A stretch of 64,000 nucleotides of DNA from Haladaptatus sp. DJG-WS-42 (GTDB taxonomy: Archaea; Halobacteriota; Halobacteria; Halobacteriales; Halococcaceae). Location of the stretch: positions 806,001 through 870,000 of the forward strand of contig NZ_CP147243.1 in the NCBI RefSeq assembly GCF_037198285.1. Direction: 5' to 3'. Shown piece by piece: positions 16,922-20,909 of the stretch. The notes under the pieces are model-generated. The model saw only the letters and a program-made list of their open reading frames with translations, was not told the origin of the DNA and made no database searches. Within the stretch, counting starts at the first letter, position 1; each line of letters starts with the position of its first letter. Made by a program: the position numbers and the translations under genes.

Positions 16922-18844
16922 CTACGCGAGGAAGTCCGGTTCGAGGCGCTTTTCTTCCTGTTCAGATTCGAGGTGGGCTTGGAACTCAGCCAGCTCTACG
17001 CCGTTTCGGTCGCGCTCCTTACGGTCGCGAACCGAGATGGTGCGGTCTGCTTCCTCGTCGCCGCCGATGATGATTTGGTACGGCACGCGGTCGGTGTGGG
17101 CTTGCTGGATCTTTCGCCCGACCGTCCACGAGCGGTCTTCGATGGTGACGCGGAAGTCGCCGAGGCGGTGTTTGAGTTCTTTCGCGTACGGGATGTTGTC
17201 GTCGCTGACCGGCAGGATGCGCACCTGCTCTGGGGCGAGCCAGAACGGGAACTTGCCGTTGTAGTGCTCGATGAGCACCATGAAGAAGCGCTCGAAGGAG
17301 CCGTAGAGCGCGCGGTGAATCATCACTGGGCGGTGGTCTTCGTTGTCCTCGCCGGTGTAGGTGAGGTCGAAGCGCTCTGGCATGTTGAAGTCGAGTTGCA
17401 CGGTCGGGCCGTCCCACACCCGGCCAAGCGCGTCCTCGAACGAGAAGTCGATTTTCGGCCCGTAGAACGCACCGTCGCCGGTTTCGACGCGGTAGTCGAT
17501 GCCCGACTCGTCGAGCACGCTTTCGAGTTGCGTCTCGGCTTGCTCCCAGATTTCGTCGCTCCCGACCGATTTCTCGGGGCGGGTTGCGAGCGCGACTTTG
17601 TACTCTAAGTCGAACGTTTCGAGCACCTCGAAGATGAGGTCCATCGTGTCCTCGACTTCTGACTTAATCTGGTCGGGGCGGACGAACAGGTGGCCGTCGT
17701 CGATGGTGAACGCCCAGACGCGCGAGAGGCCCGAGAGTTCGCCGCGCTGTTCTTTGCGGTACACCTTCCCGTTTTCTGCGTAGCGGACGGGGAGGTCACG
17801 GTAGCTCCACGACCCCTGCTTGAAGATGGTCGCGTGGCCCGGACAGTTCATCGGCTTCAGGCCGTATTCCTCGTCGTTCACGTCGAGGAGGAACATGTCG
17901 TCGACGTAGTTGTCGTAGTGGCCCGACTGCTTCCAGAGTTCCGTGCGGAACAGGTGAGGCGTCTCGACGTAATCGTAGCCGAAGCTCTCGTTCAGCGACT
18001 GGCCGTAGCCTTCTAGCTGCTGGAGGATTTTCTTCCCGTTCGGGTGGTAGAGCGGGAGGCCGGGACCGGTGACCTCTGGAATCGAGAAGAGGTCGAGTTC
18101 CTGGCCGAGTTTGCGGTGGTCGCGCTCTTTGGCCTCTTCGCGCTGTTCTAAGAATTTGGTGAGGTCCTTCTCGGACTTGAACGCCGTGCCGTAGACGCGC
18201 GTGAGGGTGTCGTTTTCTTCGTCGCCGCGCCAGTAGGCAGAGGAGATGTTGAGGAGTTTGAACGCGCCGATTTCGCCGGTCGATTCGAGGTGCGGGCCTT
18301 TACAGAGGTCTTTGAACTCGCCCTGTTCGTAGAAGGAGAGGGGGTCGTCGCCTGCGGCCTCAGTTTCGAGGATGTCGAGTTTGTACGGATTGTCCTCGTA
18401 GAGGGAGAGGGCTTCTTCGCGGGAGAGTTCCGTGCGTTCGACTTCGTAGTCTTCTGCGATGATTGTCTCGGCTTCGGCCTCGATTGCGCGCAGGTCGTCG
18501 CTGTCGAGTTCGACGCCCGTGATGTCGTAGTAGAAACCATCGTCGGTCCACGGCCCGATGGTGAGTTTGGCCTCGGGGTGGATGCGCTGGAGTGCCTGTG
18601 CGAAGACGTGCGCGCCGGTGTGGCGGAGCACCGAGAGGTAGTCGTCGCTCTGGGGCGTGACGATGACGAGGCGACAGTCGTCAGAAAGCGGCGTGTCTTT
18701 GTCAACGAGGTCACCGTCAACGACGCCAGCGACCGTGTCTCGGCCGAGTCCGGGCCCAATTTCGAATGCCACGTCTTCGACCGTCGACCCCGACTCCATG
18801 TGGAGTTCGGAGCCGTCGGGTAACGTGACGACGATTTCGCTCAT
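16922..18844 (-). CDS. thrS: Threonyl-tRNA synthetase, bacterial genre (TGS + N2 editing domain)
   Basis: A 640-residue enzyme charging tRNA-Thr. Domains in order: TGS (residues 1-60); N2 editing domain with HTGAH (about 78-82) and CKGPH (about 180-184), which clears Ser-tRNA-Thr; class II catalytic core; and anticodon-binding domain (about 535-630). The core zinc ligands are visible as Cys in [11 protein letters not shown], His in TIDDGHLF and His in [14 protein letters not shown]. All expected sites are intact. A TATA-like TTATTTT lies at about 18867-18873. A second ThrRS of archaeal genre diverges from it at 19074. Confidence 0.97.
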
Positions 18845-18866
18845 GGCCGAGGTAAGTCACACACGC

Positions 18867-18873
18867 AAAATAA
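18867..18873 (-). promoter_or_regulatory. TATA-box candidate for thrS
   Basis: The minus strand reads TTATTTT 23-29 bp before the ATG at 18844, fitting a leaderless or nearly leaderless transcript. Confidence 0.5.
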
Positions 18874-18929
18874 GTGTGTTGAGACGCGGCCACGCAGCAG
18901 GCGTGCGAGAAGGTGTCAATCCACGACAG

Positions 18930-18938
18930 GTTTATGCC
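18930..18938 (+). promoter_or_regulatory. TATA-box candidate for the leader ORF and archaeal-type ThrRS
   Basis: GTTTATGCC at this position is a typical haloarchaeal TATA box. It would place transcription start near 18958-18962, exactly at the ATG of the 14-codon ORF at 18961 and about 113 nt before the synthetase start. Confidence 0.55.
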
Positions 18939-18960
18939 GAGCGGTCATGTGTTTCTAGCT

Positions 18961-19005
18961 ATGAGTGTGTTGTTCCGGACAACACGTGGACTCGCCTCTT
19001 TCTAA
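18961..19005 (+). CDS. Candidate leader peptide (14 codons, Thr-Thr) upstream of archaeal-type ThrRS
   Basis: ATG to TAA encodes MSVLFRTTRGLASF. Codons 7 and 8 are consecutive ACA (Thr) codons at 18979-18984. They lie in the 3' arm of a perfect 7-bp inverted repeat (18967-18973 / 18979-18985, 5-nt loop). The ORF starts about where a transcript from the TATA box at 18930 should begin, and is not in frame with the synthetase at 19074. A tandem-Thr leader before a threonyl-tRNA synthetase suggests translation-coupled control, but this is inference; short ORFs occur by chance. Confidence 0.4.
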   Translation: MSVLFRTTRGLASF

Positions 19006-19006
19006 G

Positions 19007-19024
19007 GAGCCGCGCCGCTGGCTC
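19007..19024 (+). promoter_or_regulatory. Second hairpin in the ThrRS leader
   Basis: GAGCC and GGCTC form a 5-bp stem around an 8-nt loop, beginning two bases after the stop of the leader ORF. It could be the regulatory partner of the upstream hairpin. The stem is weak, so confidence is low. Confidence 0.25.
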
Positions 19025-19073
19025 TCAGTTTGCCACGACTGCCCACATCCACGTATCCAACCCAAATCAACTA

Positions 19074-20909
19074 ATGAAACTCCTGTTCATCCACGCAGAC
19101 CACCTCTCGTTCGAGGCGAAAAAAGAAGCTGGCCGCGACATCGCGGAAACCGAGGGCGTCCCCATGTCCGGACGCATGGACGACTGCGTCACCGTCTTCA
19201 TCAGCGTCGAATCCGGCGACGCAGCGAGCGTCGACGGCGTCGTCGAAAACGCCGCCGCAGAACTCCGCGACGTCACGACCCAACTGAATGCAGACAAGGT
19301 GGTGCTGTATCCCTACGCCCACCTGAGCGACGACCTCGCGCCACCCGACGTTGCAAAGCGCGTCTTCCGCGAACTCGAGGCCGAACTGAAAGACGAATAC
19401 GAACTCCTGCGCGCACCCTTTGGCTGGTACAAAGCGTTCGAAATCTCCTGTAAGGGCCACCCGCTCTCAGAGCTTTCCAGACATGTGAGCGCCCACCGCG
19501 ACGAGGAAGCAGAAGCAGAAGAACGCGCCCCCAGCGAGTGGCACGTCCTCACGCCCGACGGCGAGTTGCTCGACCCACTTGAAGCGAAGGACCAGTTCAG
19601 TGAGGACTTCCAGTCGCTCATCGCCGCCGAAGTCGAAGGCGTCACCGCGAGCAAAGGCCAAGAACCCCCACACCTCGCACTGATGGCCGAGAAAGAATTC
19701 GTCGGCTACGACGAGCTATCCGATATCGGCAACCTCCGGTGGTATCCGCGCGGGAAACTCGTCCGCGACTCGCTGATGCAGTACGTTTCTGACCTCGTTA
19801 TCGACTACGGCGGGATGCCCGTCGAGACGCCCATTATGTACGACTTGGGCGCACGGTCGATTAGCGAGCACGCAGAGAAGTTCGGTGAGCGCCAGTACCG
19901 TTTCGAGTCCGGTGACCGACGCATGATGCTCCGCTTTGCCGCCTGCTTCGGGCAGTTTTCCATCATGCGCGACATGCACATCTCGAAAAACGACTTGCCG
20001 CTGCGAATCTACGAGATGAGCACCTACTCGTTCCGCCGCGAACAGCGCGGTGAGGTGTTGGGGCTGAAACGCCAGCGGGCGTTCACGATGCCCGATATGC
20101 ACACCGCGACGAAGGACATGGCGCAGGCCAAAGCGGAGTTCGAAAAGCAGGCGAAACTCGGCTACGCGACGGGCGCAGACTTGGGTGTCTCGTACGAGGG
20201 TGTTTTCCGCATGACCAGCGCGTTCTACGACGAGCACCGCGACTGGGTCAAAAGTGTGGTCGCGGACGTAGGAAAACCCGTGCTCCTCGAACGCATCCCC
20301 GAACGCCACCACTACTGGTCTGCGAAAATCGACTTCGCCGTCATCGACGGCCTGCGTCGCCCCATCGAGAATCCGACGGTGCAGATCGACGTCGAAAGCG
20401 CCGAACGCTTCGGTATCGAGTACAGCGACGGCCAGCAAAGGCACCACCCGAACATCCTGCACTACTCACCGAGCGGGAGCATCGAACGGGTGATGGCCGC
20501 CCTCCTCGAACACGCCGCGACCGAGGACGTGCCGCGACTGCCGACGTGGCTCTCGCCGACGCAGGTCAGGTTCATCCCGGTGAGCGACGACCACGTGGCT
20601 TATTGCGATGAATTAGTGGAGAAACTGTCGGCGACGAGGATTCGCGCCGACGTAGACGAGCGCGCCGAAACGGTCGGCAAGCGCATCGTGAAAGCAGAAC
20701 GCGACTGGGTGCCCTACTACGTCGTCGTTGGCGACGAAGAACTCGACGCAGGCGAGTTCAAAGTGAACCGACGCGCGGCGGGCGACGAGGTGCGCCACTC
20801 GTTCGCTGCGCTCCGTGAGGCAGTCGATGCAGAAATCGGAGACCGCCCGCGACGACCCCGCTATCTTCCGGCGCACATGAGCGCCCACCCGCACTTTACG
20901 GGTGCGTAG
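19074..20909 (+). CDS. Threonyl-tRNA synthetase, archaeal genre (DTD-like editing domain)
   Basis: A 611-residue archaeal-type ThrRS. Residues 1-145 form the archaeal editing domain (MKLLFIHADHLSFEAKK, LYPYAHLSDDLAPP, RAPFGWYKAFEISCKGHPLS), which resembles D-aminoacyl-tRNA deacylase and removes mischarged Ser. The catalytic core follows with zinc ligands Cys (RFAACFGQF), His (TMPDMHT) and His (NILHYSPSGSIERV), then the anticodon-binding domain (LSPTQVRFIPVSDDH onward). Everything looks intact. The start at 19074 gives the exact family N-terminus and leaves a leader with a short Thr-containing ORF. It stands head to head with the bacterial-type thrS. Confidence 0.95.
   Translation: MKLLFIHADHLSFEAKKEAGRDIAETEGVPMSGRMDDCVTVFISVESGDAASVDGVVENAAAELRDVTTQLNADKVVLYPYAHLSDDLAPPDVAKRVFRELEAELKDEYELLRAPFGWYKAFEISCKGHPLSELSRHVSAHRDEEAEAEERAPSEWHVLTPDGELLDPLEAKDQFSEDFQSLIAAEVEGVTASKGQEPPHLALMAEKEFVGYDELSDIGNLRWYPRGKLVRDSLMQYVSDLVIDYGGMPVETPIMYDLGARSISEHAEKFGERQYRFESGDRRMMLRFAACFGQFSIMRDMHISKNDLPLRIYEMSTYSFRREQRGEVLGLKRQRAFTMPDMHTATKDMAQAKAEFEKQAKLGYATGADLGVSYEGVFRMTSAFYDEHRDWVKSVVADVGKPVLLERIPERHHYWSAKIDFAVIDGLRRPIENPTVQIDVESAERFGIEYSDGQQRHHPNILHYSPSGSIERVMAALLEHAATEDVPRLPTWLSPTQVRFIPVSDDHVAYCDELVEKLSATRIRADVDERAETVGKRIVKAERDWVPYYVVVGDEELDAGEFKVNRRAAGDEVRHSFAALREAVDAEIGDRPRRPRYLPAHMSAHPHFTGA

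Follow-up and report, generated by a model that had tools for sequence, protein, structure and literature searches.

The gene for the archaeal/rare-type threonyl-tRNA synthetase (ThrRS-R) in the haloarchaeal DNA studied here is preceded by a 113-nt leader, in which a short open reading frame with two consecutive threonine codons overlaps a perfect hairpin. The most probable interpretation is that this leader ORF is regulatory and belongs, as a lineage-specific case, to a hitherto unrecognised class of leader ORFs ahead of haloarchaeal aminoacyl-tRNA synthetase genes. Regarding the broader proposition that such cognate-codon leaders control their synthetases through ribosome stalling (Phe codons at pheS, Trp codons at trpS2, Thr codons at ThrRS-R), we see the chances as evenly balanced. 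If it is true, leader-peptide control would operate in Archaea and would do so on leaderless mRNAs, in the case of threonine at the level of translation. Archaea with their eukaryote-like transcription, and haloarchaea with their mostly leaderless mRNAs, would then also sense the charging of tRNAs through the translation of a leader.

A leader ORF between two divergent ThrRS genes

The window, i.e., the whole stretch of 64,000 nucleotides that was analysed, corresponds to positions 806001-870000 of a 2.78-Mb haloarchaeal genome and contains two ThrRS genes that face away from each other across a spacer (18845-19073). The gene on the minus strand (16922-18844) encodes a bacterial/common-type threonyl-tRNA synthetase (ThrRS-C; 663.8 bits with TIGR00418, cut-off 383.65), and that on the plus strand (19074-20909) encodes ThrRS-R with its archaeal N-terminal editing domain (825.5 bits with NF003068, cut-off 484). 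Both proteins are full length: ThrRS-C is matched end to end by the ThrRS structures of S. aureus and E. coli, and residues 1-141 of ThrRS-R match the solved editing domain 4rrf. The start codon of ThrRS-R (ATG 19074) was set by the N-terminal sequence MK/RLLFIHxDH that is kept in its homologues. ThrRS-C and ThrRS-R are known as homeoalleles of archaea, and we equated the two genes with these. Within the class, ThrRS-R is found in 29 of 391 genomes, 14 of which also possess ThrRS-C. Their arrangement as a divergent pair (16922-20909) was found only in this genus; elsewhere, genomes with both types keep the two genes apart. Compared with two other genomes of the genus, ThrRS-C is 97 and 95% identical and ThrRS-R is 91 and 89% identical. 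Hence, ThrRS-R is evolving faster than ThrRS-C within the genus, as expected for an auxiliary copy.

On the ThrRS-C side of the spacer, a TATA-like box (CTTATTTTG, 18866-18874, minus strand) marks the promoter of this gene, for which a leaderless transcript is predicted. A CTTAT box with GTCTCAACA before it also precedes ThrRS-C across the rest of the family, and the conservation of the extended element GTCTCAACAxxCTTAT (18866-18888, minus strand) throughout the family exceeds that of a plain TATA box.

On the ThrRS-R side, the sequence-only reading of this DNA had pointed to a TATA box near 18930 and had placed the predicted transcript start near ATG 18961. Our analysis bears this out: the box (TTTAT, 18931-18935, plus strand) ends 25 nt before the ATG, and from its position the transcript is predicted to start on ATG 18961 itself, 113 nt ahead of the ThrRS-R ATG at 19074. 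An alternative promoter located directly before ThrRS-R was considered and rejected, as there is no TTWT-like box at leaderless distance, unlike in most other ThrRS-R genes. In Haloferax volcanii, 72% of the protein-coding transcripts are leaderless, and about 80% of these start on the start codon itself (PMC4983044); given this preponderance of leaderless transcripts, ribosomes would translate the leader ORF like any other leaderless ORF.

The ORF (MSVLFRTTRGLASF; 18961-19005, plus strand) comprises 14 codons (18961-19002) and a TAA stop codon (19003-19005); in the two relatives it reads MSVLFGTTRGLASF. Codons 7 and 8 are tandem ACA triplets (Thr-Thr; 18979-18984, plus strand). They fall within the 3' arm of a hairpin with a perfect 7-bp stem inside the ORF (GTGTTGT-TCCGG-ACAACAC; 18967-18985, plus strand), just as the earlier reading had described. 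At the level of DNA, this inverted repeat could equally be an operator. ACA accounts for only 14 of the 255 Thr codons (5.5%) in 11 genes of the window. The tRNA-Thr anticodons found in the genome are CGT, GGT and TGT, and a single one of the genes found carries TGT, the anticodon matching ACA. Past the stop codon, GGAGCC (19006-19011) and GGCTCT (19020-19025) are predicted to form a second hairpin (19006-19025, plus strand); this part of the earlier description holds for the sequence of the window, but only about 4 bp of the stem are left in the relatives.

We assessed conservation in a three-way alignment of the window genome with the two same-genus genomes, both of which possess this divergent pair and the leader. 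The four-fold sites of 11 neighbouring genes, 45% of which are variable (856/1,908), provided the reference rate. Only 2 of the 45 sites of the leader ORF vary, and there are no indels (binomial P = 1.6e-9 versus the four-fold rate). One of the changes is an R6G replacement in the hairpin loop; the other is silent (TCT/TCC). Two substitutions in three genomes are too few to separate a coding constraint from a constraint on RNA or DNA. The palindrome is variable at 1 of 19 sites (a C/G exchange at a loop base; the stem is invariant), and the remainder of the ORF at 1 of 20. The conserved stretch extends from TAGCT just ahead of the ATG to the stop codon. None of the 12 sites of the TATA region (18924-18935) varies, and in the block CCACATCCACGTATCCAACCCAA ahead of the start of ThrRS-R (19044-19066, plus strand), a single one of 23 sites does (P = 2e-5). 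Variable sites amount to 10 of 19 in the spacer between the TATA box and the ATG, whose length is constant in the three species, to 6 of 24 in the stretch past the stop codon (19006-19029), and to 5 of 7 immediately before ThrRS-R. This pattern of site variability indicates that the promoter, the ORF and the block upstream of the ThrRS-R start are under selection. Retention of the Thr codons by close relatives had been set beforehand as a test of the leader idea; the ORF is kept in all three genomes of the genus (3/3), with both ACA codons invariant.

A search with the leader DNA across the class recovered only the three same-genus genomes, all other matches being short (E about 0.008 or worse). 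Likewise, among 49 further archaeal loci of ThrRS-R, of which nearly all are haloarchaeal, none showed an ORF with Thr-Thr and a TATA box, and no Thr leader was present before ThrRS-C in the loci compared. Most of the other haloarchaeal ThrRS-R genes examined have a TATA box (such as CTTTTTACC) directly before the ThrRS ATG and lack a leader, and they have this leaderless appearance regardless of whether ThrRS-C is present elsewhere in the genome. Since it is limited to the three same-genus genomes, the leader would most simply be viewed as an innovation of this genus. For the other synthetases of the three species with readable alignments (LeuRS, MetRS and one class-II gene), the TATA box lies directly before the start. 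About 50 nt upstream of the LeuRS gene show almost no variation among the three species; they include the dyad ACCTG-CGAGCGT-CAGGT, a possible regulatory site.

Phe and Trp leader ORFs at other haloarchaeal synthetase genes

A table of H. volcanii uORFs published in 2016 lists 16 such ORFs in long 5'UTRs, including those of pheS (HVO_2948; 26 aa) and of the TrpRS gene HVO_A0127 (23 aa); both lie on transcripts mapped by dRNA-seq, and neither their codons nor a role in regulation drew comment (PMC4983044). The statement of the sequence-only reading that no such case was known for an archaeal aminoacyl-tRNA synthetase holds as a claim about regulation in the literature searched, but uORFs at pheS and TrpRS were already on record in that table. 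In view of these two entries, we examined the regions upstream of pheS and trpS in 30 haloarchaeal genomes.

A Phe-run ORF, ending in GFGFFF or similar, precedes pheS in 17 of the 30 genomes (e.g., MASEPYAGCVTHERAAAPGFGFFFA), and each of these 17 ORFs is preceded, at a distance of about 25 nt, by a TATA box (AACGCTTTT). The genome from which the window was taken has a pheS leader of its own (MAPEPTPVLTGDDSRLTPGFGFFRF, upstream of pheS at 1568378). Downstream of the pheS leaders, the motifs GAAACCG and CGGAACCGCTAACTGAC are conserved, and several more genomes possess FxF variants of the ORF.

Judged by sequence, a Trp-coded ORF (WRW/WRWW) is present at 8 of 14 loci of trpS2, the gene for a second TrpRS. 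It is carried by all five of the genomes that were found to have the gene (e.g., MNAAPWRWWSPASGADSPAVVVAAA) and by three of nine plasmid loci, among them that of Haloferax mediterranei (MVSTSHANCWRWHAFREVDSIAV, 23 aa). Six plasmid trpS2 genes (Natrinema, XH8, Haloprofundus, Halobaculum) have no Trp-run ORF within 380 nt upstream; consequently, not every trpS2 gene has a Trp leader. Trp leaders occur before trpS2 in several haloarchaeal genera and on plasmids of Haloferax and Natronorubrum. From its length and the gene that it precedes, we infer that the 23-aa TrpRS uORF of H. volcanii is a Trp leader like the 23-aa Trp-coded ORF that its Haloferax relatives have before their second TrpRS gene.

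The Trp codons occupy a hairpin loop. In five sequences, the 5' arm of this hairpin begins 6 nt downstream of the ATG, an offset that the Thr leader shares. The hairpin, the 1:2 hairpin of the Trp leader, exhibits compensatory changes (e.g., TCCACTTCCC/GGGAAGTGGA to TCTACTTCCC/GGGAAGTAGA) and ranked above shuffled sequences in all five cases tested (p 0.002 to 0.028). A 2:3 switch in the trpS2 leaders was discarded, as it was significant in none of five sequences (lowest p 0.072). Farther downstream in these leaders, GCTCACTC and a T-rich stretch are conserved.

As a cross-check, one filter, a TATA-positioned ATG ORF, was applied to all sets of upstream regions. With this filter, Phe runs were recovered from 17 of 30 pheS regions and from none of 102 other regions, and Trp runs from 5 of 14 trpS2 regions, with one chance match among 118 other regions. 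Thr-Thr was present in all three ThrRS-R leaders, yet it also occurred, by coincidence, inside 6 of the 30 pheS leaders, and Thr-Thr alone is therefore a weak signature. The Phe and Trp leaders are stronger evidence for a general phenomenon than is the Thr leader.

Proposed control of ThrRS-R and competing explanations

We tentatively propose, with a confidence just short of even, that the second ThrRS gene is regulated in cis by its 113-nt leader and that ribosomes stalling at its Thr codons induce ThrRS-R; the sensing of threonine by this leader is plausible but unproven. Transcription would begin at ATG 18961, and ribosomes would translate the mini-ORF in leaderless fashion. As long as charged tRNA-Thr is plentiful, ribosomes would clear the two rare ACA codons and depart. 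The vacated leader RNA could then refold, either into the codon hairpin or through pairing of ACGTGGA (18984-18990) with TCCACGT shortly upstream of the ThrRS-R start, and less ThrRS-R would be translated. When charged tRNA-Thr(UGU) becomes scarce, a ribosome would stall at codon 7 or 8 and mask both the hairpin and ACGTGGA; it would thereby keep the ThrRS-R start region open, and the auxiliary synthetase would be induced.

This hypothetical RNA switch was explored by RNA folding. A long-range helix is possible, with ACGTGGA (plus strand) as its 5' strand and the complement TCCACGT (19048-19054) within the conserved block 19044-19066 as the other. This helix and the codon hairpin compete in the model of the unmasked leader, and for the helix, mean pairing probabilities of 0.43 to 0.91 are predicted; in both relatives, the 5' arm would also be able to pair with CCCAAC adjoining the ThrRS start. 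Placing the masking footprint of a ribosome at codon 7 or 8 removes the long-range pairing in the models for all three species. The opening of the ThrRS start region that is predicted upon stalling is small (unpaired fraction 0.48-0.67, rising to 0.71-0.72). No transcription terminator is seen between the ORF and ThrRS-R, and the longest T-run in 19006-19073 is TTT. In the absence of a U-run or terminator from the leader, control at the level of translation is favoured. The notion of a cognate-codon leader, which the sequence-only reading had put forward for this locus, finds backing in the Phe (pheS) and Trp (trpS2) leaders found elsewhere; Thr-Thr taken alone carries little weight, and the second hairpin is poorly conserved. 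The number of Thr codons in the leader, only two, is small by comparison with the cognate codons of the Phe and Trp leaders.

Single features of the leader (the stem, Thr-Thr and the long-range pairing) are only mildly unusual by chance. A perfect 7-bp stem arises anywhere in a leader of like composition with p about 0.037, and Thr-Thr arises in a shuffled ORF with a probability of about 0.12. ACGTGGA is complementary to sequence farther down the leader with p values of 0.09 to 0.24 and no accompanying covariation, and the fold of the whole leader is no better than that of shuffled sequence (z = -0.34). These modest values would be in keeping with a region of conserved promoter-proximal sequence with no regulatory role, composed of a promoter, a start-site context and an unstructured stretch for ribosome entry. 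We nevertheless hold this to be improbable, as conservation of the 45-nt ORF greatly exceeds that of silent sites, in a block that extends from the TAGCT before the ATG to the stop codon, and other archaeal ThrRS-R genes manage without a leader. The same low probability attaches to an autoregulatory RNA, in which ThrRS-R or ThrRS-C would bind the leader hairpins and repress translation as the E. coli ThrRS does. Two hairpins and a conserved block ahead of the start codon of a ThrRS gene would suit such a mechanism; the loops found in the three species (TCCGG/TCGGG and GCGCCGCT/GTGCCGCT) are, however, without the Thr anticodon NGU, and the second hairpin is poorly conserved.

The remaining two explanations, both of them unlikely in our view, concern the ORF and the dyad themselves. 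The leaderless ORF at the 5' end might capture ribosomes and hold ThrRS-R low via reinitiation or blocking, regardless of the charge of Thr-tRNA. Such a non-sensing uORF would show identical anatomy and conservation, and Thr-Thr is not rare among haloarchaeal leader ORFs; on the other hand, it predicts neither the two rare ACA codons nor the recurrence of cognate codons at pheS and trpS2, and we assign it a low probability. Alternatively, a dimeric repressor might bind the 19-bp inverted repeat, centred at +16, and block the transcription of ThrRS-R, with the ORF being incidental. The perfect 7-5-7 dyad lies directly downstream of the predicted start, it is the sole mismatch-free copy in the 2.78-Mb genome (five further sites have 2 mismatches each), and its only change among the three species sits at its centre, all of which would befit an operator. 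An operator leaves the conservation of 18986-19005 and 19044-19066 unexplained, however, and a scan of eight neighbouring genes revealed no recognisable regulator. Moreover, the genome contains no second copy with 0 or 1 mismatch, and a regulon sharing the palindrome was rejected on this ground. Overall, we rate the operator as rather unlikely. The proposed control of synthetase genes by cognate-codon leader ORFs is directly testable, since Haloferax is tractable and the uORF transcripts of H. volcanii have been mapped at pheS and a TrpRS gene.

Relation to known regulatory systems

Ribosome-mediated attenuation is a textbook bacterial mechanism. In the trp, his, thr and pheST leaders of E. 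coli, a short ORF with consecutive cognate codons overlaps a hairpin, and the gene controlled restores the pool of charged tRNA. The Thr leader resembles these systems in that its predicted transcript opens with a short ORF whose tandem cognate codons overlap a hairpin. It differs from them in being archaeal, in its predicted leaderless initiation and in having only two cognate codons; furthermore, neither a terminator nor a U-run precedes ThrRS-R, so that control would be translational. We found no report of ribosome-mediated attenuation in Archaea in the literature searched, a search that left subscription literature largely outside.

T-box riboswitches located before thrS and thrZ of Firmicutes let the charging of tRNA-Thr control ThrRS, including a second, inducible ThrRS. 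There, the Thr signal is read by RNA-tRNA pairing, whereas in the ThrRS-R leader it would be read by the ribosome. A T-box or another known RNA family was rejected for this locus, as nothing in the window matched an Rfam family at the gathering score. In the translational operator of E. coli thrS, ThrRS binds mimics of the anticodon arm in its own leader. In both systems, hairpins occur upstream of a ThrRS coding region; mimicry of tRNA-Thr after the fashion of this operator was dismissed, since neither loop of the ThrRS-R leader displays NGU.

The uORFs of H. volcanii at pheS and a TrpRS gene are likewise short ORFs ahead of haloarchaeal synthetase genes and lie on mapped transcripts; they differ in their genes and sequences and include no Thr case (PMC4983044). 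Both types of ThrRS were already known as archaeal homeoalleles, ThrRS-R within the Halobacteriales from Halorhabdus utahensis, and usually one type was reported per species (PMC3191353); in the genome studied here, both are present, and they form a divergent pair.
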